Shown: one piece after another, positions 7-51,128 of the stretch
How positions within the stretch are numbered: position 1 is the stretch's first letter
How the letters are laid out: every line of letters starts with the position of its first letter
Source of the DNA: Lutibacter profundi
Lineage (GTDB): Bacteria > Bacteroidota > Bacteroidia > Flavobacteriales > Flavobacteriaceae
NCBI RefSeq assembly: GCF_001543325.1
Contig: NZ_CP013355.1
Span: 2,076,001 to 2,140,000 of the forward strand
Reading direction: 5' to 3'
DNA: 64,000 nt
Position numbers and translations under genes: made by a program
Notes under the pieces: model-generated
What the model was told of the DNA's origin: nothing
What the model saw: only the letters and a program-made list of their open reading frames with translations
Database searches by the model: none

Positions 7-246
7 GTAAAGGAGGAAATCCAACATGAATATATGATGACCCATTATGTTACTCCTATCTCTCAGGCAATACGCAGATTGGATAATAATTCTTATCCTA
101 TTGAATACTATTATGGTTTTGGTTGGTCAGGATTAGAGAGATATGGAATTCTAAATAATTTACTAACCGTACAAGAACAGGAATATAATGAAAGTCTAAA
201 AAACAATGTGAATATAAACTCTACTTATGGCTCTAACTGCAATTAA
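7..246 (+). pseudogene. C-terminal remnant of an HExxH metallopeptidase-like lipoprotein (paralogue of the gene at 1156-3024)
   Basis: The reading frame is open from base 7 but preceded directly by two stops (TAG TAA at 1-6), so upstream sequence cannot join it without a frameshift. The translated tail matches the end of the complete paralogue: IQHEYMMTHYV against FQHEFMGQYV, then a GFGWSGL / GFGGL stretch, and both end in Cys-Asn. The alignment begins before the first ATG (34), so this is the end of a longer gene and not a 70-residue protein. The metal-binding HExxH would lie upstream of the window. The last 20 bases overlap the next gene. A sequencing error at the frameshift is the main alternative to decay. 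Confidence 0.6.
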
Positions 247-820
247 AATAAAAAGTATCCATCTATTTTTGTTTATAATGCTTAGTTCTTTATTTCTCTC
301 AAGTTGTGATTCTAATGAGGATAAAGATATTGAAGATATTGTTTCTTTACTTATAAAAAAAAGTATAGAAGATGATATGCTTTATAAGAATGATTCTTTG
401 ATGATTAAAGAAAATCTCTTTATTAACGGTAAATTTATTGTCGCAGTACATAATGAAATGACTCCTATTTTGAATAATTTTGGGCTTAGAAAACACCAAA
501 ATGAATTTAAAGAAACATTCCAAAAGTTACAATCCTTAAAACAAAGTAAAAAAATTAATTTTCAAATTGATAATTCTTTAAAAGATGTATTGATTACTGA
601 TTTTACACCTGAATTAAGGGAAGATTTTAGTAAAGGAAAGATTTATAAATCTTATCATATGGTTAACTCATTTTCTAGAGTTGCAATTGTTAATAACAAG
701 GCATTAGCAACTTACTCTATATCTTATTCTCCTTTAGATGGAATATCATACCTAGTCTATTTGAAGAAAGAAAATGGAACGTGGTACATTTTCGATCGCC
801 AATTATTATCTATTTCTTAA
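227..820 (+). CDS. Small lipoprotein overlapping the metallopeptidase-like remnant
   Basis: A 197-residue protein with a Sec/SPII signal: a hydrophobic run (residues ~11-24) followed by LSSC, with lipid-modified Cys at 27. The mature part is charged and has no family I recognise; its C-terminal half (strand-rich, ending in a YLVYLKKENGTWYIFD pattern) resembles NTF2-like or lumazine-binding-like folds, which is a guess. The start at 227 lies inside the end of the preceding reading frame, a 20-base overlap implying translational coupling. The same arrangement recurs at 2993 with an unrelated partner, suggesting that each metallopeptidase-like gene carries a dedicated exported partner, perhaps an inhibitor or immunity protein (inference). 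Confidence 0.75.
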   Translation: MALTAIKIKSIHLFLFIMLSSLFLSSCDSNEDKDIEDIVSLLIKKSIEDDMLYKNDSLMIKENLFINGKFIVAVHNEMTPILNNFGLRKHQNEFKETFQKLQSLKQSKKINFQIDNSLKDVLITDFTPELREDFSKGKIYKSYHMVNSFSRVAIVNNKALATYSISYSPLDGISYLVYLKKENGTWYIFDRQLLSIS

Positions 821-908
821 ACTTAATTAAAAATAATGAAAAGTCTTGGCAGAATTTCGTTAAGGTTTTTCTTTATCAGAGTATAAATATATCTTAGTAG
901 AAATACAA

Positions 909-1031
909 ACCACAACCACATATATAAAAAACAGCAGAAAAGTGTCATACCAAAACCTGATGCTTTTCTGTTACCTTTATACACTAAACGAAAATAGTAA
1001 TATTTAACCCGCTACTTTTTATATACACACC
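909..1031. repeat. Copy 1 of a ~125-bp direct repeat with nested inverted repeats
   Basis: The first 73 bases (909-981) are identical to 3712-3784, and similarity continues to about 1031. Inside is a hairpin CAGAAAAG (935-942) / CTTTTCTG (963-970) with a 20-base loop. The outer parts also pair imperfectly: ATATATAAAAAACAGCAG near the left end against the complement of CGCTACTTTTTATATACA near the right. Both copies lie just after an exported-partner gene, so the repeat could be a transcription end, a recombination site, or both. This stretch fills most of the 335-base gap between 820 and 1156. Confidence 0.85.
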
Positions 1032-1097
1032 GTTGTTTATACTTCGACAGAAACAAAAACAGAAAAATTGCATTACAACACTAACAAATAGTAAGCA

Positions 1098-1129
1098 TTT
1101 ACCCTACTTTTTTTACGGTTTTACCCTAC
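1098..1129 (+). promoter_or_regulatory. Two direct repeats TTTACCCTAC upstream of the HExxH lipoprotein gene
   Basis: TTTACCCTAC occurs at 1098-1107 and again at 1120-1129, 22 bp apart (about two helical turns, same face of DNA). This suggests a protein-binding site for a dimer. No clear TAnnTTTG box was found between here and the gene, so the promoter itself is not placed. Confidence 0.3.
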
Positions 1130-1155
1130 AACAAAATGAAATATTTTAAGTATTC

Positions 1156-3024
1156 TTGAAAATTAAAAATAAACACTTAAATTTAAACTTTTATGAAAAG
1201 AAAAGAAAAGAAAAGAAACAACAAACTTTTAAAAAGGTAATATTCCTACTTGGAATATCCCTACTGCTATGGAATTGTAACAAAGAAGTATCTATTGAAC
1301 CTCTTAACGGGGAATTAAATGTACTGGGCACAAAAATAGGGTATATTATAGGTAAAGATATACCTGAAATTATTAATGTGTTAACTGCTTATACAGGAAA
1401 AATATCTTCTAAAAAAGCTATTTATTCTAAAACCTTAAGTTATAAAAAAGCACGTATTGATATAGAATCAATATTGAAAGTCAAAGACTACAATAGCATT
1501 GTAAATTATACGTTTAATATAATAATAGATGATGCTCCTGAAAACGAATTTTATAACTTAGTAATAAATGAACAGCCTAACGGAGAATTAAAATTGCCTT
1601 ATGTAACTAAATACGTTGTGGATAACGATGCTTTGGCAAATTATTTGGCTAATAATAAAGATTTCCGTTATTTTAAAGGTAAAAATTATACAATGTCTTT
1701 TAATAGTTTCTTTGATAATTACGATACTTCAGGCAAATCATTAAGTGATTGTCCTCCAGATGAAACCACTATCAACAATACAAATACAGGGGGAAATGGT
1801 AATTTTAATGATATTCCAAGTGATAACTTTATACAAGTAGATGCTTCTAATTTTAATTATTCAACAAGTGTAATTCAAGGGCAAAGTTTTGAAGTATTTC
1901 TAAATAGTTTTAATACAACTACACTAGAAACAACTTCGTATTCAGCAATAATAATGAATACTGCGATACCTATAACAACTACTGCTCAACCCATTAACCC
2001 TATCACAGTTAACACAAATCTAGGTATTGTTACTAACTCTGGACCTGTTGTTATAGGAATGTCTATAACAACTGTTGACAATTCCTTAAATAGTGGTGTA
2101 AATAGCGGTTGTTATATGACAATTGTAACATACTATAGTGATGGTACCTCTACTACTTCTCAAACAGATATAGGTTGTATGTATGCTCCAATACTAACTA
2201 AACCTGCTTTTTCATCAAAAACAACTACTTGCCCTGACCCTGCAGAAGGGGAAATAGGTGTAATTATTAGAGCTTGTGAATACCCCTATGTTAAAGATGC
2301 TCAAGGAAATTGTGTAGCTCCTGACAAAATTATTAATAACCTAACAAACTCTTGTGCAAAAGATATTTTCATGGAGCTTGAAAATGGTATTTTTACAACT
2401 CACCCTTTAAAACCAGAAATAATTATTTCAAATAATAATACTCTTGAACTAAATTTTTCTGAAACTATTTTAAAACTTTTTAATGATAGTAGTTCTACAC
2501 ATTTAATAATTGGAAACGATGATATTGGAAATGCCAATGCTCATACAGTTGGAACTACAATAACTTTAAATAATTCTTATATTGAAACTGCAACTCAATT
2601 ATCTATTGCAAGAACTATTATTCACGAATCTGTGCACGCATATTTAAATGGTGTTTATTTTAGTTATACGGATTTTGAAAATAAATCCTTACAAGAAAAA
2701 ATGAGACAATATGCTGCTGATAATGGATATACTGATTATAGTAAATTTCAACATGAATTTATGGGACAGTATGTGAATGCTATGGCATATTCTTTGTACG
2801 AATGGGATAAGGATTATGGAACTGGAGGTAACTTAGGCTGGAACTATTATTATTCTATGGGGTTTGGAGGTTTATTTCAAACTTATTCCAATGGTATAAT
2901 TGCTAGTGAAACAGATTCATTTAAAAGCCTAATTCCAGACTCAATTGAGAGACAAAAAATTGCAAATATTATATTTAATGAATTAAAAAACAATGATGAT
3001 GCAAAAGGTAAAAAGTGTAATTAA
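1156..3024 (+). CDS. HExxH metallopeptidase-like lipoprotein with out-of-frame ATG (candidate phase-variable gene)
   Basis: The open frame runs from a TTG at 1156 and encodes up to 622 residues. The only sensibly placed ATG (1193) is out of frame and stops after 15 codons. Removing one AAAAG unit (or adding two) at 1196-1215 joins that ATG to this frame and gives a textbook lipoprotein signal: Lys/Arg-rich start, hydrophobic run, then LLLWNC. The middle is rich in Thr/Asn/Ser. The C-terminal third carries IIHESVHAYL with HESVH at residues 490-494 (TTG numbering) and a second FQHEFM (His 533) as a plausible third ligand, typical of a zinc-metallopeptidase fold. The end overlaps the next gene by 32 bases. 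Substrate unknown; a cell-surface protease or polymorphic toxin are both possible. As assembled, the gene is either off or uses the weak TTG start. Confidence 0.75.
   Translation: MKIKNKHLNLNFYEKKRKEKKQQTFKKVIFLLGISLLLWNCNKEVSIEPLNGELNVLGTKIGYIIGKDIPEIINVLTAYTGKISSKKAIYSKTLSYKKARIDIESILKVKDYNSIVNYTFNIIIDDAPENEFYNLVINEQPNGELKLPYVTKYVVDNDALANYLANNKDFRYFKGKNYTMSFNSFFDNYDTSGKSLSDCPPDETTINNTNTGGNGNFNDIPSDNFIQVDASNFNYSTSVIQGQSFEVFLNSFNTTTLETTSYSAIIMNTAIPITTTAQPINPITVNTNLGIVTNSGPVVIGMSITTVDNSLNSGVNSGCYMTIVTYYSDGTSTTSQTDIGCMYAPILTKPAFSSKTTTCPDPAEGEIGVIIRACEYPYVKDAQGNCVAPDKIINNLTNSCAKDIFMELENGIFTTHPLKPEIIISNNNTLELNFSETILKLFNDSSSTHLIIGNDDIGNANAHTVGTTITLNNSYIETATQLSIARTIIHESVHAYLNGVYFSYTDFENKSLQEKMRQYAADNGYTDYSKFQHEFMGQYVNAMAYSLYEWDKDYGTGGNLGWNYYYSMGFGGLFQTYSNGIIASETDSFKSLIPDSIERQKIANIIFNELKNNDDAKGKKCN
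1193..1218 (+). repeat. AAAAG pentanucleotide tract (4 units) directly after an ATG
   Basis: ATG at 1193-1195 is followed by four exact AAAAG units (1196-1215) and a partial AAA. Each five-base gain or loss changes the frame. With the present four units the ATG frame ends at a TAA after 15 codons; with three or six units it enters the metallopeptidase-like frame with an ideal signal peptide. Slipped-strand mispairing at such tracts is a known route to phase variation of surface proteins; four units is short for a highly mutable tract. Confidence 0.8.
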
Positions 3025-3694
3025 GAAAAGTTTATTTATTTTAATTATCCTAAGCAATAGTTTAATTGTCTTTTCTCAAGATAAAATAAAAGGTAAATAC
3101 TCTGTTGTAGATGAAACAGGATACTTTTTTACAAATTATTATTTTTCTGAAAAAGGAACTTTTATATATAGTTCTGGAGGTGATTTAGGAGTTTCTAATT
3201 ACGGCAAAGGGCATTATTTTATAAAAAAGGATAGTTTATTTTTAAATTATGACTTAACTGAACTGAAAGAAAACAGTTATCATAGAACAAAAGAATATTA
3301 TAATTCTAAAGATTCTATTCAAATTAAACTAAATATATATAATTTTAGTAAAAAACCATTACATAAAATTCAGGTTTGGTCTTTTCCAAATTATAAATCC
3401 GAAGAATTAGATACTAATGGAGTAGCTTTATTTAAGTTTAAAAAAGAAAAACGTAAAGATAAGTTAGAAATACATTTAGATGGTGAATATTATGCAAAAC
3501 ATGTTATTAATTTAAATTATAACATAAATTATGAAATAGATGTTTTTATGAGTAAGACTGATAATTATGGTTTTGGACATTCAAAAGCTTATAAAAATGA
3601 TGTTAAAAAATATAAAATTATTGAATTTAATAAAGAGTCTATTAAACTTGAAGATAAAAATGGGATAGTAATTTGGAGAAAAGAAAATGACTGA
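2993..3694 (+). CDS. Small exported protein overlapping the HExxH lipoprotein gene
   Basis: A 233-residue protein with a Sec signal peptide (KKSLFILIILSNSLIVFSQ, cleavage near residue 29). The mature part begins with KGKYSVVDETGYFF and is strand-rich with alternating aromatic residues; I recognise no family. Three in-frame ATGs in a row (2993, 2996, 2999) make the exact start uncertain. It overlaps the upstream gene by 32 bases in another frame, so translation is probably coupled. It is not similar to the partner at 227-820, although both sit in the same position relative to paralogous upstream genes. Confidence 0.75.
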   Translation: MMMQKVKSVIKKSLFILIILSNSLIVFSQDKIKGKYSVVDETGYFFTNYYFSEKGTFIYSSGGDLGVSNYGKGHYFIKKDSLFLNYDLTELKENSYHRTKEYYNSKDSIQIKLNIYNFSKKPLHKIQVWSFPNYKSEELDTNGVALFKFKKEKRKDKLEIHLDGEYYAKHVINLNYNINYEIDVFMSKTDNYGFGHSKAYKNDVKKYKIIEFNKESIKLEDKNGIVIWRKEND

Positions 3695-3711
3695 TAACAA
3701 TTAATACAAAA

Positions 3712-3837
3712 ACCACAACCACATATATAAAAAACAGCAGAAAAGTGTCATACCAAAACCTGATGCTTTTCTGTTACCTTTATAAACTAGACGAAAAAAT
3801 CACAAAGAATTAACCTGCTACTTTTTATATTCACACC
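3712..3837. repeat. Copy 2 of the ~125-bp direct repeat with nested inverted repeats
   Basis: Bases 3712-3784 are identical to 909-981, and the right part (GCTACTTTTTATAT then CACACC) is also shared. The two copies bracket a ~2.8-kb unit holding the metallopeptidase-like gene and its partner, so homologous recombination between them could delete or duplicate that unit. Confidence 0.85.
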
Positions 3838-3880
3838 AATAGTTAAAAGAAATAGCTGTTTTATAAGGTAAAAAAAGGGG

Positions 3881-4675
3881 TTAGGTTACTTTTAATCTTC
3901 TAATTAGTATTGAAAGTATTTTTGGAAAGAAACGTTTAGTGTAAACAGCTAATTTTTCTTTAAAACCGCCAATAATAATTTCTTGTTTTTCTTTTTGAAC
4001 AGCTTTTAGTAGTTGTTTTACAAATAGAGAACTACTCATACCGTTTTCTGTTAAAGCATTCATTTTATTTTGTGGGATCCCTTTTCCTGTTAAAGCATTG
4101 ATAGAGATATTTGTTTGTATAAAACCAGGACAAACCAATATTATTTTAATATTGTTTTTATAAACTTCAGCACGTAAACTATCAAAAAATCCGTGTAATG
4201 CATGTTTTGAAGCTGCATAAGAAGAACGCATAGGTGTTCCTATTTTTCCTACTACACTTGAGGTAATTACAAAATAGCCGCTATTTTTTTGAATAAAATG
4301 GGGTAATAATGCTTTTGTTAGCGCAATAGTTCCAAAATAATTAATATCCATAATACGTTTGTCAACCTCAATTAAAGTATCTTTTACCAAAGAGCGTTGA
4401 CCAATTCCTCCATTGTTAAATAAAATATCAATACCACCAAATAGCAATAGAGCTTCATTAACTTTAGACGTTAAACTTTTATAATTTTCTAAATCAAGCG
4501 GTAGAATTTTAACGTTTAACGTATTTTCACATGCGTTTTTTACGTTATTAAGCTCAATTTCATTTCTTGAAGACAAAATAAGTTGTACATTTTGTTTCGA
4601 GAGTTCTAGTGCTAAAGATTTTCCAATTCCTGATGAAGCACCAGTAATCCAAATAATTTTATTGGTAAAATTCAT
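3881..4675 (-). CDS. Short-chain dehydrogenase/reductase (SDR)
   Basis: A 264-residue classical SDR. The Rossmann cofactor motif TGASSGIG is at residues 11-18, the NNGG structural motif at 87-90, the catalytic Ser near 139, and YxxxK as Tyr153/Lys157. SSRN at 35-38 after the second strand suggests NADP(H) preference. The C-terminal tail has a basic stretch (KRFFPKILSILIRRLK) that may associate with membrane, as in DHRS7-like oxidoreductases. The substrate cannot be read from sequence. It is divergent from the TlpA-like gene with only 65 bases between the starts. Confidence 0.9.
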   Translation of the reverse strand: MNFTNKIIWITGASSGIGKSLALELSKQNVQLILSSRNEIELNNVKNACENTLNVKILPLDLENYKSLTSKVNEALLLFGGIDILFNNGGIGQRSLVKDTLIEVDKRIMDINYFGTIALTKALLPHFIQKNSGYFVITSSVVGKIGTPMRSSYAASKHALHGFFDSLRAEVYKNNIKIILVCPGFIQTNISINALTGKGIPQNKMNALTENGMSSSLFVKQLLKAVQKEKQEIIIGGFKEKLAVYTKRFFPKILSILIRRLKVT

Positions 4676-4740: not shown

Positions 4741-6087
4741 ATGATGTTAAAAAAACTATTATTTACAATTGTATTATTTTCTTACACAATCCAAAGTCAA
4801 ACTTATGTAAAAGGAACTTTAGATCCAGCACAAAATTATAGTTGGGTAGTTTTATATCAATTAAAGGGAGCAAAACAATTATATGTAAAAAATGCCACCA
4901 TTTCTAATGGTAAATTTTCAATTGAATTTCCCTCAAATGCTTCTGAAGGAATATATCGTTTATTATACAGTCAGCAAAATAATGGTTTTATTGATTTTAT
5001 TTATAATAATAAAAGTGTTGAATTAAAATTCAATCCCAAAAACCCAGTGGAAACACTGAATTTTTTAACTTCAGAAGAAAATAAAATATATCAGAACTAT
5101 CAAAAAGAGTCAACTAAAAATAAACGAAAGTTAGATTCAATTCAACTATCATTTTTTAATACTAACAATGAAACTCAAAGAGAAAAGCTAAAAAATTTAT
5201 ACACTAAAACGTATAAAATTTACAATGAAAAGCAAAAATATTTTGAAACATTAACAGTAGGAAAGCTCTCAAATCATTTTATAAAATCAAGTTTTAAATA
5301 CTATGTTCCACATATAATTCAAACGCCACAAGAATATTTAAATAGTGAAAAACAGCATTATTTCGATTTTGTGAATTTTAAAGATAAGGAGCTTTTAAAT
5401 TCAATTTTTTTGAGTGAAAAGGTAACAGATTACGTTTTTTATTTAAATGGATCAGATGATATAGAAGTGCAAAATAAATTATATAGGAATGCCATAAATG
5501 AGGTATTTAAAAAGATAGGAGACAATTTATTATTAAAAAAGGAACTCTTAATTACTTTAATGTATAATTTTTCACAACTTGAAAATGTTGTTTTAATTGA
5601 TTACTTAATAAATAATTTTTACAATAAATTACCTGAAGAGCTTAAAGATGAAACTACAATAAATCAAATTCAAGATAAAGTAAAACTGGCTGTTGGTAAA
5701 AAAGCTCCAGATTTTTCTTTTGAAAAAAACGGAAAAAAAATTTCACTCTCTGAATTAAATAGTGCAGCAAATTATATCCTTGTTTTTTGGAGTACAGGAT
5801 GTTCACATTGTTTAAATGAAATGCCTAAACTATATGATTATACAAAAAATAAAACGAATATTCATGTAGTAGCTTTTGCCATGGAAAACGATGATATAGA
5901 TTTTAACAAGTACAATTCTATATTTACAGCATGGACCAATATTTTAGGGTTAAAAAAATGGCAAAACCCAATTGCACGAGAATACCAAATTACTTCTACA
6001 CCAACGTATTTTATTTTAGATAAGGATAAAAAAATTATTGCAAAACCAGAACATTTTGAAGATGTAAAAGCCTTTTTTGAAAAATAA
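4741..6087 (+). CDS. TlpA-like thiol-disulfide oxidoreductase with DUF4369-type N-terminus
   Basis: A 448-residue exported protein; the start is placed at ATG 4741 (a GTG at 4714 is possible but precedes the likely transcript start). The signal peptide runs to about IQSQ. The N-terminal half is a strand-rich domain of the DUF4369 type, the middle is helical and charged, and the C-terminal ~130 residues form a thioredoxin fold beginning VGKKAPDFSF. The active site is CSHC at residues 354-357 (WSTGCSHC), and cis-Pro is in STPTYF. In Bacteroidota such proteins reduce or exchange disulfides of periplasmic or outer-membrane partners. No neighbouring partner is evident. Confidence 0.85.
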   Translation: MMLKKLLFTIVLFSYTIQSQTYVKGTLDPAQNYSWVVLYQLKGAKQLYVKNATISNGKFSIEFPSNASEGIYRLLYSQQNNGFIDFIYNNKSVELKFNPKNPVETLNFLTSEENKIYQNYQKESTKNKRKLDSIQLSFFNTNNETQREKLKNLYTKTYKIYNEKQKYFETLTVGKLSNHFIKSSFKYYVPHIIQTPQEYLNSEKQHYFDFVNFKDKELLNSIFLSEKVTDYVFYLNGSDDIEVQNKLYRNAINEVFKKIGDNLLLKKELLITLMYNFSQLENVVLIDYLINNFYNKLPEELKDETTINQIQDKVKLAVGKKAPDFSFEKNGKKISLSELNSAANYILVFWSTGCSHCLNEMPKLYDYTKNKTNIHVVAFAMENDDIDFNKYNSIFTAWTNILGLKKWQNPIAREYQITSTPTYFILDKDKKIIAKPEHFEDVKAFFEK

Positions 6088-6190
6088 AAAATATTTTATC
6101 CGTTGTAAATAGTTACACTAAATTAGTGATATTTTGTTAGTTGTATCATAAAATATATTGTTTACACTAAAAGAAGTTCCTTATTTTTTA

Positions 6191-6273: not shown

Positions 6274-7710
6274 ATGTCTTGTAATTCAGGTAGTATACAT
6301 GAGTTTGTACCAACCCCTTCAAATTTGTGGAATAAAAAACACGTACAGCATTTTTATAGACGTGTAGGTTTTGGAGCATACACAAATGAAATAGAGCAAG
6401 CATTAGCATTAACGCCTTCAAATTTTGTTGAGAACACAATAAATAAAGCGGTAAACTTACCTTTAGAAACACCTCCTTCATGGTTTGAAATGGTTGAAAG
6501 TGATTACACAAATATTGATGAGCAAATGCAAGAGCAGCATAAGGAATTGTATTTAACTTGGGAAAAAGACATGTTAAATAATCCTCTTAGAGGTAGGTTT
6601 ACGCTGTTTTGGAGCAACCACTTTGTTACACGTTTAGAAGATTATTGGTGCTCATCTTGGATGTATAATTATTACAGTATTCTTCAACAATATGCTTTTG
6701 GAAACTTTAAAGAGTTTGTTAAAGCAATTGGCTTATCACCAGCAATGCTAATATTTTTAAATGGCTATCAAAATTCAGCAACAGAACCAAATGAAAATTA
6801 TGCGCGGGAATTATATGAGTTGTTTACCTTAGGTGTTAACAACGGATATACTCAAAGTGATATTGTTGAAACGGCTAAAGCTCTAACAGGATATACGGCT
6901 ATTAATGAATATTGTGCACCTATTAGTTTTGATATAAACGATTTTGATAATTCTTCAAAAACTATTTTTGGAAAAACAGGAGATTGGGGATATAATGATG
7001 TTATAAATATTCTTTTTGAAGAAAGAGGTTATGAAGTAGCAACATTTATTTGTGAAAAATTATACAAATATTTTGTATCACCCGAGGTAGATTCAGCAAT
7101 TGTATCTGAGTTGGCAGCTACATTTATTGCCAATGATTTTGAATTAGCACCTGTTTATAAGCAATTATTTAAAAGTGAACATTTTTTTGATAACAATGCT
7201 ATTGGCATTGTAATAAAAAGTCCTTTTGACGTATTTAATATTTATTTTAGAGAAACTGGTTTTACCACCAACCCAGAACTGCTTTTAAACGTTATTTGGC
7301 TTACAAGTGAGATAGGACAAACATTATTTGAACCTATTGATGTAGCAGGTTGGCAAGGGAATCATGATTGGATAAACTCCAGTACGTTGGTTGGCAGATG
7401 GAATGCCTTTGAATATTATTTATGGTGGATTTGGGAAAATCACAATGAAAGTTTAAGAGATTTTGCAGTTAATTTAGCTGGAGAATCTAACGACCCTTTA
7501 GTTATTACTAAAATTATTATAGATCACTTACTTCCAAACGGTTTACAAACAGCAACGGATTATGGTATTGCAACAGCAGTTTTTAAAGATCAAGTTCCTC
7601 AAAATTATTTTGAAAATGGCACGTGGAATTTACAATGGGATACCGTGCCTTATCAGGTAATTGTTTTATTACTTTATATTGTTAGATTGCCTGAATTTCA
7701 ACTAAAATAG
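6274..7710 (+). CDS. DUF1800 family protein
   Basis: A 478-residue protein with hallmarks of the DUF1800 family: WNKKHVQHFYRRVGFGA near the start, the LTLFWSNHF-like stretch (RFTLFWSNHFVT), ENYARELYELFTLGVNNGYTQSDI, and the late DVAGWQGNHDWI motif. It has no clear signal peptide. DUF1800 genes are nearly always followed by a DUF1501 gene, as here (6-base gap), forming a two-gene operon. The biochemical role is unknown; the pair is usually thought to act in the envelope or in secretion. Confidence 0.9.
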   Translation: MSCNSGSIHEFVPTPSNLWNKKHVQHFYRRVGFGAYTNEIEQALALTPSNFVENTINKAVNLPLETPPSWFEMVESDYTNIDEQMQEQHKELYLTWEKDMLNNPLRGRFTLFWSNHFVTRLEDYWCSSWMYNYYSILQQYAFGNFKEFVKAIGLSPAMLIFLNGYQNSATEPNENYARELYELFTLGVNNGYTQSDIVETAKALTGYTAINEYCAPISFDINDFDNSSKTIFGKTGDWGYNDVINILFEERGYEVATFICEKLYKYFVSPEVDSAIVSELAATFIANDFELAPVYKQLFKSEHFFDNNAIGIVIKSPFDVFNIYFRETGFTTNPELLLNVIWLTSEIGQTLFEPIDVAGWQGNHDWINSSTLVGRWNAFEYYLWWIWENHNESLRDFAVNLAGESNDPLVITKIIIDHLLPNGLQTATDYGIATAVFKDQVPQNYFENGTWNLQWDTVPYQVIVLLLYIVRLPEFQLK

Positions 7711-7716
7711 TAAGCT

Positions 7717-9321
7717 ATGAGAAGTAATAATTTACATACTAATTTTGATAAAAACCATGATAAAGAACATGCAGTTTGGAATCGTCGTTCATTTTTACAA
7801 GCTCTTGGTTTAGTTGGAGCAGGATCTATAATGTTAGGGAAAATACCCGTATCAGCATCAACAATTACTCCTTTAAGTAAAGCTTTAACGGCTTCTGAAA
7901 ATGATAAAATTTTAATTATAGCAAGGCTAAAAGGAGGAAATGATGGCTTAAATACAGTAATACCATATTATGATTATGATACTTATGCAAATTTGAGACC
8001 AACCATAAGAATTAAACAAAATGATTCTTTTGCGCTTTCCAACGATTTTAAAATGCCTAATTATATGGATTCGTTACAAAATTTTTGGGAAGATGGAAAA
8101 ATGAAGGTTGTACATGGCGTTGGGTATTCTAATCAAAGTTTATCTCATTTTAGTTCTGCAGATATTTGGTCTTCAGCAGGAAATAAAGGTGACAATTTAC
8201 AAACAGGTGTTTTTGGGCGTTATCATGAAGATTTGTATCCAGATTATTTATTAAATCCACCTACAAGTCCTCCTGCAATACAAATAGGAAGTTTAAGTAA
8301 TTTAATGTTTGTTGGTGATGAGGCAGGTTATGCCTTTTCAGTTGCAAATATTGATCAATTAGCTCAAATTGCCGAAAAAGGAACAGCATTTGATGTACAA
8401 AACTTACCTTCTTGTGATTATGGAAGTCAATTAGGTTTTATGAGAAATGTTAACAATTCAACGTTTAACTATGCGAGTGTAATTAACGAAGCGTATATAG
8501 ATGCAAGTAATGATGTTTCTTATGAAAAAAATAATATCTCTAAACAATTTGCCTTAATTGCACGATTGATAAAAGGGAATTTAGGAACTAAAATATATAT
8601 GGTTACGCTAGATGGTTTTGATACACATGCAGATCAACCAAATAAGCATGAAAAATTGATGGGTAATTTTACAAAAGCAATTTCTAATTTTTATGCAGAT
8701 TTAGCAACTCAAAGTAAAGATAGTGATGTTTTAACAATGACCATTTCTGAATTTGGACGTAGATCAAAAGAAAATGCTTCAAATGGTACAGACCACGGAG
8801 CAGCATCTACAATGTTATTGTTTGGTGAAGGGCTTAACGGAAATGGTTTTGTAGGAAATCACCCAGATTTAAATAAGTTGAATAGCAATGGAAATATGGA
8901 TTTCACTACAGATTTTAGAGATGTATATGCAACCATTTTAGAAAAGTGGTTGTGCATAGATAGTTCAATTGTAGATACTGTTTTATTAAACAATTATAAC
9001 AGAGCTAATTTAGGATTGAGATGTTCTTCTGTAATAGATGATGGTACTGATATTTCTGATGTAAGTTTTAAACATTATCCCATTTATGGTAATGAAACTG
9101 TTTATGTAGAGTTTGTTTTATCCACAGCTATGGAGGTAGAAGTTCAACTTGTAAATATTTTAGGTCAAAACATTGGAGTAATTCACAAAGAGAGGTATTT
9201 AAAAGGTACGCACCGCGTTAATTTAAACCCACAAGCTAGAAGATATACACCAGGACATTATATTTACAGAATATTTGCAGAAGGAAAATCGTATAGCAAG
9301 TCAATTGTTCTCGTTAAATAA
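7717..9321 (+). CDS. DUF1501 family protein with Tat-like signal and T9SS sorting domain
   Basis: A 534-residue protein. The N-terminus has a twin-arginine-like signal (WNRRSFLQALGLVGAGS, residues ~21-37). The body is the DUF1501 fold, related to alkaline-phosphatase/sulfatase-like enzymes, with ARLKGGNDGLNT, LDGFDTHADQ and TISEFGRRSKENASNGTDHGAAS. The last ~75 residues (from about 460) look like a type IX secretion C-terminal domain: strand pairs with VQLVNILGQ and a terminal YSKSIVLVK. This implies final location at the cell surface. It is the partner of the upstream DUF1800 gene. Confidence 0.9.
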   Translation: MRSNNLHTNFDKNHDKEHAVWNRRSFLQALGLVGAGSIMLGKIPVSASTITPLSKALTASENDKILIIARLKGGNDGLNTVIPYYDYDTYANLRPTIRIKQNDSFALSNDFKMPNYMDSLQNFWEDGKMKVVHGVGYSNQSLSHFSSADIWSSAGNKGDNLQTGVFGRYHEDLYPDYLLNPPTSPPAIQIGSLSNLMFVGDEAGYAFSVANIDQLAQIAEKGTAFDVQNLPSCDYGSQLGFMRNVNNSTFNYASVINEAYIDASNDVSYEKNNISKQFALIARLIKGNLGTKIYMVTLDGFDTHADQPNKHEKLMGNFTKAISNFYADLATQSKDSDVLTMTISEFGRRSKENASNGTDHGAASTMLLFGEGLNGNGFVGNHPDLNKLNSNGNMDFTTDFRDVYATILEKWLCIDSSIVDTVLLNNYNRANLGLRCSSVIDDGTDISDVSFKHYPIYGNETVYVEFVLSTAMEVEVQLVNILGQNIGVIHKERYLKGTHRVNLNPQARRYTPGHYIYRIFAEGKSYSKSIVLVK

Positions 9322-16170: not shown

Positions 16171-18561
16171 TTAAGATGCTAATGCAGCTTGCATTAGAGC
16201 ATAATATTCGTCTGCTTGTGCTAATTGACTAGCATAAGTTGCCTCTAATGTATCTACAAGAGCTTGAAGGTATGTAATATACGCTTGAGCAGCAGCTTCA
16301 TCAACTTGTCCTTCAGCTAAAGCAGCTTGAGCATTAGCAAGACTGTTCATTGCAGTTGCAAGATCAGCTTGTAAGCTAGCTAATCCAGTAGCAAGGTCAG
16401 CTAAATTATCAGTATAAACGTTAACCATATTATTAGCTAACGCTTGCTCATTATCTAATGCAGTCCACTCAGCAGCAAGAGCATAGTACTCATTCCAAGC
16501 AGTAATAAGTTGCGCTTCAATATCAGCATCATTACTTGTAATATAACCAGTACTAGCAATATATGCATCGTATTCAGCTTGTAAACCATCAACAACAGCT
16601 TGATATGCATCAATTAAAGGCTGAATTTGAGAAATAGTTAATTCCCAGTCAGCGATATCAGCATTTGCAGCATCAATCCATCCTTGTAACATAGTAGGTG
16701 TATCTAAAGCAGCTAGAGCATTATTAGCAGTAGTTAAAGCATTATTAGCAGTAGTTAAAGCATTATCAGCAGTAGTTAAAGCATCGTCAGCAGCATCATA
16801 ATCTGCTTGAGCAGTAGCAAGAGCATCTTCAGCAGCAATAACTAAGGCAACCTGATTGTCATATAAATCTTTTTGTTCATTAAAAGTAACTAACGCAGCA
16901 GCTAACGCATCTCCAAATGTATCAACAGTAAGTTGAGCAGCATCTACCGCATCTTGAAGAGGTTGAATAGCATCTTGAGCAGCAGTTAAAGCAACTACAG
17001 CAGCGTCTAATCTATCAGCATTTGTTCCACCAGCAACATCATCTGTACCTACATCGTAATAATCTCCAGGAGCTAAAGCTCCAGCAGTAGCATCAGCTAA
17101 GAAAGCAGCATAAGTTCCATATGTACCTGTATGGTCAATACCAGTACCAGCAGTTAATGTCAAAGCATCTACTCCGTCATCTGTTGAGTTAACAACGTAA
17201 TAAGAGGCTGTTATCGTTGTAGCATCAGCATGCAACCCTAAAGCTTCGTTTACACCAGCTTCCCATACAAACCCACTAGGGTCTGCTTCAAAAACAGCTA
17301 ATTTAGCGTCGTAATCCGCTTGTGCAACATCCACTGCATCTACACCAGCTGCTAAATTAGCTTGAGCAGCAACCAAATCGGCATTAGCACCAGCAATACC
17401 AGCATCATAAAGAGCTTGTTCAGTAGCTAAATTTGCAATTGCAGTTTGGTAGCTAGCATCTAATAGTGCAAGAGCAGCGTTAAGATCATCAAGATTATTA
17501 GTTGCAGTAGTTAAAGCAGCATCAGCATCATCGAAAGTACTAACAGCATCGTTATACACTACTAATGCAGCGTCATAGTTAGCTTGAGCAGTGGCGACAG
17601 CATCTTCAGCAGCAGCTAAATCAGCAGGATAACTATCAATAGCATCTTGCCACATTAAAATATCAGCTTCAGCTAAAGCAATATCATCTAAGAAATCTTG
17701 CTTGTCAGCTTGAGCATCTTCTAAATCAGCTAAAGCATTTTCATATCTAGTAACAATTTCATCTCTACTTGCTTGTAAGTCAGCCAATGCAGTAATTTCA
17801 TTCATTTTTGCAGTAATTTCAGCATCTTTTGCTGCTAATAGTGCGTCAAGCTCAGCAACTCTATCTTCCCACATTGTTTTTTGAGCTTCAGGAGTAGAAG
17901 GATCTTGCATATACGCTTCTAAATCTGCAATAGCAGTTTCTAAAGCTGTGATGTTTGCTTGATTTGTAAACACTGTAGCTTCTAATTGTGCTAAAAAGTA
18001 TGTCCAAGACACATTTCCGTTTAACATTAACTGAGCAGTAGCTAAACTTGCTTCAGCAGTTAGTTTTTGAGACAATGTGTTGTTTGCATGTGTCATAGCT
18101 ATACTATACTTTGTAGCATATTCTGCAGCTAGTGTAACACCTGCAGCTTCTATTTGAGCCATAAGATCTATCATTTCAAGATCAAAATTAGCCTGTGAAA
18201 TAGCTAAAGCATTTTGTGCGTTAGCAACATTCAAATCAGTTTGAGCAGCAAGAGTTCTTAATTGTTGCTCACGTACAGCAGCATCATAAGCATCATCTGC
18301 TATAATTCCAGCAGTAATTGCATCAGCTTGAGCAGCTTGGGCAGTTGTGTAATCAGCTTGTGCTTGAGCGGCAGCAGCCTGCGCTGCTAACAAATTAGCT
18401 TCTGCATTTTGTACAGCAGTTTGCGCGGCCATTAAATCAGCTTGAGCTGAATAAATAGCTTCTACAAGTGGCGAGACTTCATTGTCAATACAAGATGTAA
18501 AGCTGGTACTAAATAAGGCAGTTATCATTAGAACTACCGTAAATCTTTTAATTTTTTTCAT
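16171..18561 (-). CDS. Very Ala-rich coiled-coil lipoprotein
   Basis: A 796-residue protein with a lipoprotein signal (MKKIKRFTVVLMITALFSTSFTSC, Cys near 24). The rest is dominated by Ala, Gln, Asp, Thr and Leu in heptad-like patterns (AQADLMAAQTAVQNAEANLLAAQAA), i.e. long helical coiled coil, interrupted by a short non-helical domain near residues 430-515 (FVWEAGVNEALGL ... DYYDVGTDDVAGG). The composition is far from that of its neighbours and raises local GC. It contains three tandem 21-bp units. Probably an outer-membrane-anchored fibre or spacer working with the next-door barrel; no known family was recognised. Confidence 0.8.
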   Translation of the reverse strand: MKKIKRFTVVLMITALFSTSFTSCIDNEVSPLVEAIYSAQADLMAAQTAVQNAEANLLAAQAAAAQAQADYTTAQAAQADAITAGIIADDAYDAAVREQQLRTLAAQTDLNVANAQNALAISQANFDLEMIDLMAQIEAAGVTLAAEYATKYSIAMTHANNTLSQKLTAEASLATAQLMLNGNVSWTYFLAQLEATVFTNQANITALETAIADLEAYMQDPSTPEAQKTMWEDRVAELDALLAAKDAEITAKMNEITALADLQASRDEIVTRYENALADLEDAQADKQDFLDDIALAEADILMWQDAIDSYPADLAAAEDAVATAQANYDAALVVYNDAVSTFDDADAALTTATNNLDDLNAALALLDASYQTAIANLATEQALYDAGIAGANADLVAAQANLAAGVDAVDVAQADYDAKLAVFEADPSGFVWEAGVNEALGLHADATTITASYYVVNSTDDGVDALTLTAGTGIDHTGTYGTYAAFLADATAGALAPGDYYDVGTDDVAGGTNADRLDAAVVALTAAQDAIQPLQDAVDAAQLTVDTFGDALAAALVTFNEQKDLYDNQVALVIAAEDALATAQADYDAADDALTTADNALTTANNALTTANNALAALDTPTMLQGWIDAANADIADWELTISQIQPLIDAYQAVVDGLQAEYDAYIASTGYITSNDADIEAQLITAWNEYYALAAEWTALDNEQALANNMVNVYTDNLADLATGLASLQADLATAMNSLANAQAALAEGQVDEAAAQAYITYLQALVDTLEATYASQLAQADEYYALMQAALAS
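16721..16783 (-). repeat. Three 21-bp tandem repeats in the Ala-rich lipoprotein gene
   Basis: Units at 16721-16741, 16742-16762 and 16763-16783 differ by one base in the third. They encode heptads of the type ALTTANN, so each gain or loss adds a whole heptad without breaking the coiled coil. Confidence 0.8.
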
Positions 18562-49358: not shown

Positions 49359-51128
49359 ATGAAAAAATCAGTACTATTATTAATATTCATGCTTACCATA
49401 TTTCAAGGGGTTTCACAAACTAAAGGAATTAGTTATCAAGCTGTTATTTTAAACCCAGAAGCACAGGAAATACCAGGGGTAAATGTACAAGGTAATATAT
49501 TATCCAACACTACCGTTGGAATCCAATTTACCATTATAGATGCTTCAGGAAATGAAGAGTACCAAGAAAGTCATACTACAAGTACAGATAAGTATGGGAT
49601 GCTAAACTTATTAATAGGAACAGGGAATCCTACGAGTAGTACTAATTTCTCAGAAATAGTTTGGGATGGAACATCCAAGAAATTAAAAGTTGCTATTGAT
49701 TTTTCAGGAGGTAGTAATTATTCACTTTTAAGTGAGCAAAACCTTACTTATATGCCACAACCTCCAACAGAACAAGTATCAATTGCAATTGAAACCAATA
49801 CAGAGGCAATAATTAACGAAATAATAAGAGCGACTGGAGCAGAAGAGCTTAACACTACAGATTTAGCAGCAGAAGTATTAAGGGCAACAACAGCGGAAGG
49901 CGTAATCCAATCAGATGTAGATGCAAATCAAACAGCAAGTGAATTAGCAGATGCAACACTAACTACAGATTTAGCAGCAGAAGTGTTAAGAGCAACAACA
50001 GCGGAAGGCGTAATTCAATCAGATGTAGATGCAAATCAAACAGCAAGTGAATTAGCAGATGCAACACTAACTACAGATTTAGCAGCAGAAGTGTTAAGAG
50101 CAACAACAGCGGAAGGCGTAATTCAATCAGATGTAGATGCAAATCAAACAGCAAGTGAATTAGCAGATGCAACACTAACTACAGATTTAGCAGCAGAAGT
50201 GTTAAGAGCAACAACAGCGGAAGGCGTAATTCAATCAGATGTAGATGCAAATCAAACAGCAAGTGAATTAGCAGATGCAACACTAACTACAGATTTAGCA
50301 GCAGAAGTGTTAAGAGCAACAACAGCGGAAGGCGTAATTCAATCAGATGTAGATGCAAATCAAACAGCAAGTGAATTAGCAGATGCAACACTAACTACAG
50401 ATTTAGCAGCAGAAGTATTGAGAGCAACAACAGCAGAAGGTGTAATCCAATCAGATGTAGATGCAAATCAAACAGCAAGTGAATTAGCAGATGCAACACT
50501 AACTACAGATTTAGCAGCAGAAGTATTGAGAGCAACAACAGCAGAAGGTGTTAATGCCACTGCAATTTCGACACTGCAAACAGAACAAATAACTCAAAAT
50601 ACTGCTATTGCTGCTAATACCGCTACAATTGGTGAAATAAAGCAAACTATTGCTTTATCTATGCCTAGTGGCTGGGTAAAGCTAGATGGTGCAGCTATTT
50701 CTAGTTTAACTAGCACACAGCAAACTGAAGCAGCAAATCTTGGTTTATTTGGAAACTTGCCAAATGCAACAAATGCCTATTTAAGCCAAAACGGTAGTAC
50801 TTTAGGAAGTGTAAGTGGTAGTAATTCTAAAACCATTGCTCAAAATAACCTCCCTAATGTTACCCTTTCAGGTACAACAAATTCCGCAGGAAATCATAGC
50901 CATTATATTTATGGAAATACAAGTGATAACCTTTCATCTGCAGGAGGTAATAGTGATTATGTGCTTTCAAATACTGATGGAGCTGGAGCTGGAGAGTATA
51001 CAGCTGCTTCAGGAACTCATACACATACTCTAACAACAGTATCTATTAATGGAGGTGTTACACAACAAGCTATGGATATTACACCAACAACGCTAAGTGT
51101 GAATACCTATATTTATTTAGGACAGTAA
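49359..51128 (+). CDS. Secreted fibre-like protein with 36-residue tandem repeats
   Basis: A 589-residue protein: signal peptide to GVSQ, an N-terminal domain common in Bacteroidota surface proteins (KGISYQAVILNPEAQEIPG ... LSEQNLTYMPQPP, to ~140), then six full 36-residue repeats (residues 166-381; TTDLAAEVLRATTAEG...) and a partial seventh, a short coiled coil, and a C-terminal region like phage tail collar/fibre tips (MPSGWVKLDGAAI, SGSNSKTIAQNNLPNVTLSGTTNSAGNHSH, HTHTL). It probably forms a trimeric stalk and tip on the cell surface (inference). Confidence 0.85.
   Translation: MKKSVLLLIFMLTIFQGVSQTKGISYQAVILNPEAQEIPGVNVQGNILSNTTVGIQFTIIDASGNEEYQESHTTSTDKYGMLNLLIGTGNPTSSTNFSEIVWDGTSKKLKVAIDFSGGSNYSLLSEQNLTYMPQPPTEQVSIAIETNTEAIINEIIRATGAEELNTTDLAAEVLRATTAEGVIQSDVDANQTASELADATLTTDLAAEVLRATTAEGVIQSDVDANQTASELADATLTTDLAAEVLRATTAEGVIQSDVDANQTASELADATLTTDLAAEVLRATTAEGVIQSDVDANQTASELADATLTTDLAAEVLRATTAEGVIQSDVDANQTASELADATLTTDLAAEVLRATTAEGVIQSDVDANQTASELADATLTTDLAAEVLRATTAEGVNATAISTLQTEQITQNTAIAANTATIGEIKQTIALSMPSGWVKLDGAAISSLTSTQQTEAANLGLFGNLPNATNAYLSQNGSTLGSVSGSNSKTIAQNNLPNVTLSGTTNSAGNHSHYIYGNTSDNLSSAGGNSDYVLSNTDGAGAGEYTAASGTHTHTLTTVSINGGVTQQAMDITPTTLSVNTYIYLGQ
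49854..50550 (+). repeat. 108-bp tandem repeats (six full, one partial)
   Basis: Units begin at 49854, 49962, 50070, 50178, 50286, 50394 and 50502, each with ACTACAGATTTAGCAGCAGA. Units 2 to 5 look identical base for base; the first and the last two carry a few silent changes. The period of 36 codons keeps frame, so copy number can change by recombination without breaking the gene. Confidence 0.95.

Follow-up and report, generated by a model that had tools for sequence, protein, structure and literature searches.

The closest described counterpart to the locus reported here is found in the opa genes of Neisseria, in which a pentamer, (CTCTT)n, lies in the sequence for the leader peptide and switching takes place at a rate of about 1 in 1000 per cell per generation (PMC3745409). 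Two further systems resemble it in other respects. The SitA proteins of the myxobacteria are polymorphic lipoproteins with variable C-terminal domains and a linked downstream gene, and occur in several copies; that account makes no mention of phase variation (PMC5562445). Polymorphic toxins with lipobox N-terminal domains (APD1/APD2), and with Tox-MPTase3 among their toxin domains, combine variable C-termini with an N-terminus that is conserved following the signal and lipobox, and the part of their description covered here contains neither a repeat-gated start nor any mention of phase variation (PMC3482391). A literature search, with most subscription journals lying outside its coverage, returned no report of a repeat-gated toxin-like leader and nothing on phase variation in Lutibacter.

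Like opa, the AAAAG leader described here has a five-base unit and belongs to a multi-copy surface-protein family in which the number of units sets the frame of each copy. Unlike opa, it carries four AAAAG units directly after the ATG of a flavobacterial lipoprotein with a toxin-like body, and its switching is proposed from the sequence. By analogy, the AAAAG gate would work like the opa leader pentamer. The family shares with SitA its polymorphic lipoproteins, variable C-terminal domains, linked downstream gene and multiple copies, a likeness confined to architecture and leaving aside exchange of the TraA type. The tips seen here resemble metallopeptidases or DUF6973 and not tRNases. The conserved N-terminus and variable C-termini of the lipobox toxins are also seen here. 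However, the tip of the gene studied reached the cut-off of no Pfam family (its score against the SprT-like family PF10263 was 19.7 bits, below the gathering score of 25.6), whereas its paralogue 673262 does carry a Tox-MPTase3 tip (60.7 bits; cut-off 25).

The stretch of DNA analysed (the window; 64,000 bases, positions 2076001–2140000 of a one-contig genome of 2,966,978 bases) holds the third of three copies of this leader, designated A, B and C (Table 1). In copy C, ATG 1193 is followed at once by the four AAAAG units and then by AAACAACAAAC. Its frame reads MKRKEKKRNNKLLKR and stops after 15 codons, as had been reported in an earlier note made from the sequence alone; the same note had given the long frame (1156–3024) only a TTG start, and TTG 1156 was found to be its sole start upstream of the leader. 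In the long frame the leader reads KKVIFLLGISLLLWNC, a lipoprotein signal with the lipobox LLLWNC as previously described, and this frame lies one shift away from that of ATG 1193. That three or six units would bring ATG 1193 into the long frame is borne out by arithmetic. The unit of the tract is not divisible by three, and the tract is sited where the number of units alters the frame. The body of copy C is open in the leader frame for 595 codons and contains, at 2623–2637, the sequence HESVH, which agrees with the HExxH motif of zincin metallopeptidases; an HExxH had also been pointed out in the earlier note.

Table 1. Positions of the features of the copy C locus (window coordinates) and of the three leader copies (genome coordinates).
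Feature	Position	Strand	Remark
Motif TTACGGTTTTACC in shared upstream region	1113..1125	+	about 70 bases before ATG
TTG, only in-frame start of long frame upstream of leader at four units	1156..1158	+	
ATG, inherited start codon (supported)	1193..1195	+	aligned ATG in tract-free paralogues and relatives
(AAAAG)4 tract, proposed frame gate	1196..1215	+	copy A 5 units, copy B 4
Leader coding part: predicted signal and lipobox LLLWNC, long frame	1216..1288	+	73 bases identical in copies A, B and C
TAA ending ATG frame at four units	1238..1240	+	
Lipoprotein scaffold	1289..2307	+	9 of 43 protein matches end at query residue 387 or less
C-terminal tip with HESVH	2308..3024	+	21 of 43 matches begin at residue 320 or later
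Downstream gene overlapping end of tip; candidate immunity gene	2993..3694	+	
Copy A (genome)	2069069		5 AAAAG units
Copy B (genome)	2072264		4 AAAAG units
Copy C, in window (genome)	2077193		4 AAAAG units

It is proposed, with a probability of about 0.6, that the leader of a polymorphic-toxin-like surface lipoprotein is gated in its frame by the AAAAG tract. Ribosomes would initiate at ATG 1193. Multiples of three units would let them read the lipoprotein signal and make the full protein, whereas the four or five units of copies A, B and C would halt them after 14–15 codons. Shifts in unit number, most simply through slipped-strand mispairing, would then turn copies ON or OFF. The downstream candidate immunity gene, having its own start, could stay available with the lipoprotein off, and recombination could set the repeat-bearing leader with its upstream region on another body. 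It is well supported that the repeat number varies in nature and sets the frame. Switching by repeat number in living cells is inferred, as are slippage, reversibility, a silent OFF state, toxicity and immunity.

The array formed by the three copies spans 8124 bases, at and just before the left end of the window. Upstream of the ATG the three agree at every one of 52 bases, and beyond the tract at every one of 73; within this common stretch one AAAAG unit is the sole difference. Copies B and C are identical over 82 bases before the ATG, while copies A and B are identical over 168 bases after the tract; farther upstream, copy A diverges through substitutions and a 14-base insertion. Three near-identical copies could have been confused during assembly, in which case the unit numbers would be wrong. 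This is judged scarcely credible, since the genome is a single contig of 99.87% completeness, each copy has distinct outer flanks and the difference amounts to a whole five-base unit. Recombination among copies A, B and C could also account for the change in unit number. It should also be noted that copy B is interrupted by an insertion that carries a lipoprotein-like ORF of 275 amino acids (L007, about 6744–7717).

Of the 49 tandem-repeat rows recorded for the window, the AAAAG tract was the only one with 100% matches and at least three copies. In shuffled windows, three AAAAG units with at most one mismatch turn up 0.22 times on average; two overlapping matches are present in the real window, a count reached by 4 of 100 shuffled windows, so that an origin of the tract from base composition alone is unlikely but not impossible. 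An ATG followed by three AAAAG units occurs at 3 places in this genome, at none in the 37 other genomes of the genus and at none in the 396 other genomes of the family sample. The reversed control of this pattern gave three matches in 397 family-sample genomes.

As to which start codon is the inherited one, leader genes that lack the tract, both in this genome (650127, 673262, 637824 and 707012) and in others, start at the aligned ATG; ATG 1193 is supported as the inherited start by this alignment. Initiation at TTG 1156 would offer a different explanation: as the frame read from that codon is open at four units, copies B and C would produce a lipoprotein extended at its N-terminus, and the tract would set a weak or a strong state. 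A TTG is indeed found at the expected ATG position in three relatives (L125, L126 and G354:C61), which makes initiation at TTG conceivable in this family. However, the equivalent frame ends at codon 4 to 6 in all five tract-free relatives checked, which places TTG 1156 in sequence that is untranslated elsewhere, and the TTG frame is closed at five units in copy A. The open TTG frame at four units looks accidental, and a TTG start is considered improbable.

Ribosomal frameshifting before the stop was also considered, as it would restore the lipoprotein frame at four units through the run CTTTTAAAAAGG (1225–1236). The codons of the ATG frame at this point are CTT TTA AAA AGG TAA, and slippage by −1 here gives access to the long frame; T TTA AAA before the TAA is what we take to be a slippery-type site. 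However, the tract-free paralogues have a comparable TTTAAAAA run in frame, where slipping would do harm, which argues that the run is not kept as a frameshift signal. This explanation was judged very unlikely.

The window ORF matched 43 public proteins, among which P0043 is of particular relevance to the frame gate. This protein has an open frame of 514 amino acids and comes from a contig of 21,044 bases (jgi, ena). Its N-terminus, MKRKEKKQQPFKKVIFLLGISLLLWNCNKEEIGYLENSEAK, begins with MKRKEKKQQ, the reading expected from three AAAAG units, and its unit number, as read from the protein sequence, would be three. The body is of the A/B type with a DUF6973 tip. Outside this genome the leader was found in P0043 alone, in searches with the window ORF and with residues 1–180 of P0043, the latter matching 5 proteins; the shortened N-termini of P0011, P0017, P0041 and P0044 may conceal more repeat cases. 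Compared among relatives, the unit number differs (5, 4 and 4 in the array, three as read from P0043) and is not uniform, whereas uniformity among relatives would, by the earlier note, have spoken against a switch. The earlier note had seen in this locus the layout of contingency loci, and this is in part supported by the inherited ATG, the differing unit number of the leader copies and the open three-unit relative; the shortness of a tract of four units, which the note had itself pointed out, still stands against it. Judged by its sequence, the locus is built like a repeat contingency locus.

The closest scaffold relatives of copy C, P0002 and P0003, share the N-terminus MKKKQIKNYLKT, with CEKE after the lipobox. 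Their leader is repeat-free and differs from that of copy C, which is the leader of A, B and P0043. As copies B and C also diverge right after the lipobox region, a leader swap onto the body of C is suggested, in which the gated leader and its upstream region were probably moved onto that body by recombination; the reverse order of exchange is possible. Near-identical leaders with differing bodies are also found next to each other in G152 (L136 = G152:C33) and in G354 (L139 and L140), of another genus, in an array in which the divergence sets in just past the lipobox.

A conserved N-terminal part with exchangeable tips is apparent from the protein matches, as 21 of the 43 cover the tip only and 9 the leader or scaffold only. 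The family would be described from its sequences as polymorphic-toxin-like, with a common leader, an exchangeable scaffold and tip, and a recurring downstream gene. A homologue of this downstream gene (30% identity) overlaps the end of a related tip gene in G025, the one close tip that was checked for it, and another homologue lies near a different tip in L056. A PDB sequence search using the tip returned one chain (E 0.98), taken as chance; Foldseek gave no match at E ≤ 0.001. No match was obtained with PADLOC for 4 proteins at E ≤ 0.01, and NCBIfam gave two weak rows for 8 proteins, both far below cut-off.

To place the tract within the wider family, 49 leaders were assembled: the 38 genus genomes contributed 15 matches at E ≤ 1e-6, 299 family genomes, only 24 of which had any match, gave 33 further leaders, and the last was the leader of G011 (E 2.1e-6), which was added because its repeat was already known, weaker matches being left out. 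An in-frame ATG was present 66–96 bases before the Cys or the match end in 39 of the 49, one of which (L128) has a stop inside the leader. The ten without it are copies A, B and C, G011, G403, L113, L120, L125, L126 and G354:C61. Perfect tandem repeats of at least 20 bases were found in five leaders and represent three repeats, with units of 5, 11 and 22 bases; all five leaders lack an in-frame ATG, and no unit is divisible by three. The 11-base unit, in G011 (L056 4968–5040 = G011:C7), is present in about three perfect copies after an ATG whose frame stops, with the leader in another frame. No in-frame variant of this case was found, the open L056 frame as query leading to P0047, which is the same gene with its start called at the same internal Met. 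The 22-base unit is a tandem duplication inside the leader of G403 (L129, G403:C42), which has no in-frame start and no ATG nearby. From their sequences, the repeats of 5, 11 and 22 bases are considered to be three independent events. As a control, 225 distinct ORFs beginning with ATG and 100 or more amino acids long were drawn from the DNA retrieved for this study. One of them shows a repeat of this kind within the first 75 bases, its unit being 9 bases, a contrast that is overstated because genes broken by their own repeat cannot be in the control. A 15-base repeat of a 7-base unit near the start in G025, G021 and L131 is in frame, and these leaders were left out of the tally of gates.

The main rival to the frame gate is decay, whereby the toxin-like genes of the array are failing and the change in unit number is but one of several mutations that inactivate them. 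On this view the repeat came about in a lysine-coding stretch rich in A, and no population would use it as a switch. The bodies of four of the seven leader genes of this genome are broken (A, B, 637824 and 707012). Those of A and B are near-identical, with 5 mismatches in 388 bases, and in both the leader frame is lost after 86 codons; copy B is moreover split by its insertion. Plain lesions are also seen elsewhere in the family, namely the stops in L128 and in L113 (G335), in the latter as third codon, the ATG in another frame and without a long repeat in L120 (G377), and the TTG codons of L125, L126 and G354:C61. Four units, furthermore, are few for a fast contingency locus. However, the body of copy C is open throughout its 595 codons, an open three-unit relative exists in P0043, and the leader repeats arose, as it appears, three times independently, with no unit divisible by three. 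The frame gate is favoured on these grounds, and decay is held to be a possible but doubtful account. In the paralogue 637824 the frame is lost where seven A stand in a row (L050, about 1988–1996), either an ordinary lesion or a slippage-prone site of a second kind.

If the frame gate is correct, flavobacterial genes for toxin-like antagonism would be repeat-switched through a leader that is exchanged between bodies, and tip exchange and phase variation would provide two sources of diversity in one locus. Some lipoprotein genes that appear in assemblies as start-less or internally started would be switched off and not dead, and gene callers would pick a wrong start, a TTG or an internal ATG, for such genes. 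A broader suggestion can be put forward only tentatively: that the gated leader, recombining onto polymorphic-toxin bodies, forms a portable phase-variation cassette for interbacterial weapons in the Bacteroidota. Were this the case, single weapons could be silenced and re-armed by slippage while their immunity genes stay on, and gates of 5, 11 and 22 bases would have arisen repeatedly in one leader family.

In the region upstream of the leader, the sequence TTAYGGTTTTACC (the motif at 1113–1125) has 7 sites in the genome, five of which are upstream of leader genes of the family, with none for the reversed control; it is possibly a regulator site. Inverted repeats like it (TTACGG-5-CCGTAA) were also seen upstream of leaders in other genomes. 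An intergenic element of about 130 bases is repeated at the cassette borders (window 905–1031 and 3703–3837; L007 about 5970–6100). It contains a hairpin of 15 pairs at 933–972 (−16.7 kcal/mol), and none of 200 shuffles folds as well; Rfam gave no match for window 800–3900 at the gathering cut-off. Pieces resembling orphan tip ends were recognised by eye ahead of small lipoprotein genes (window 34–246; L007 about 5300–5400 and 8940–9060). Elsewhere in the window, tandem repeats with longer units are present at 16717–16793, where a 21-base unit occurs in 3.2–3.7 copies, and at 49854–50548, where a 108-base unit occurs in 6.4 copies with 98% matches.
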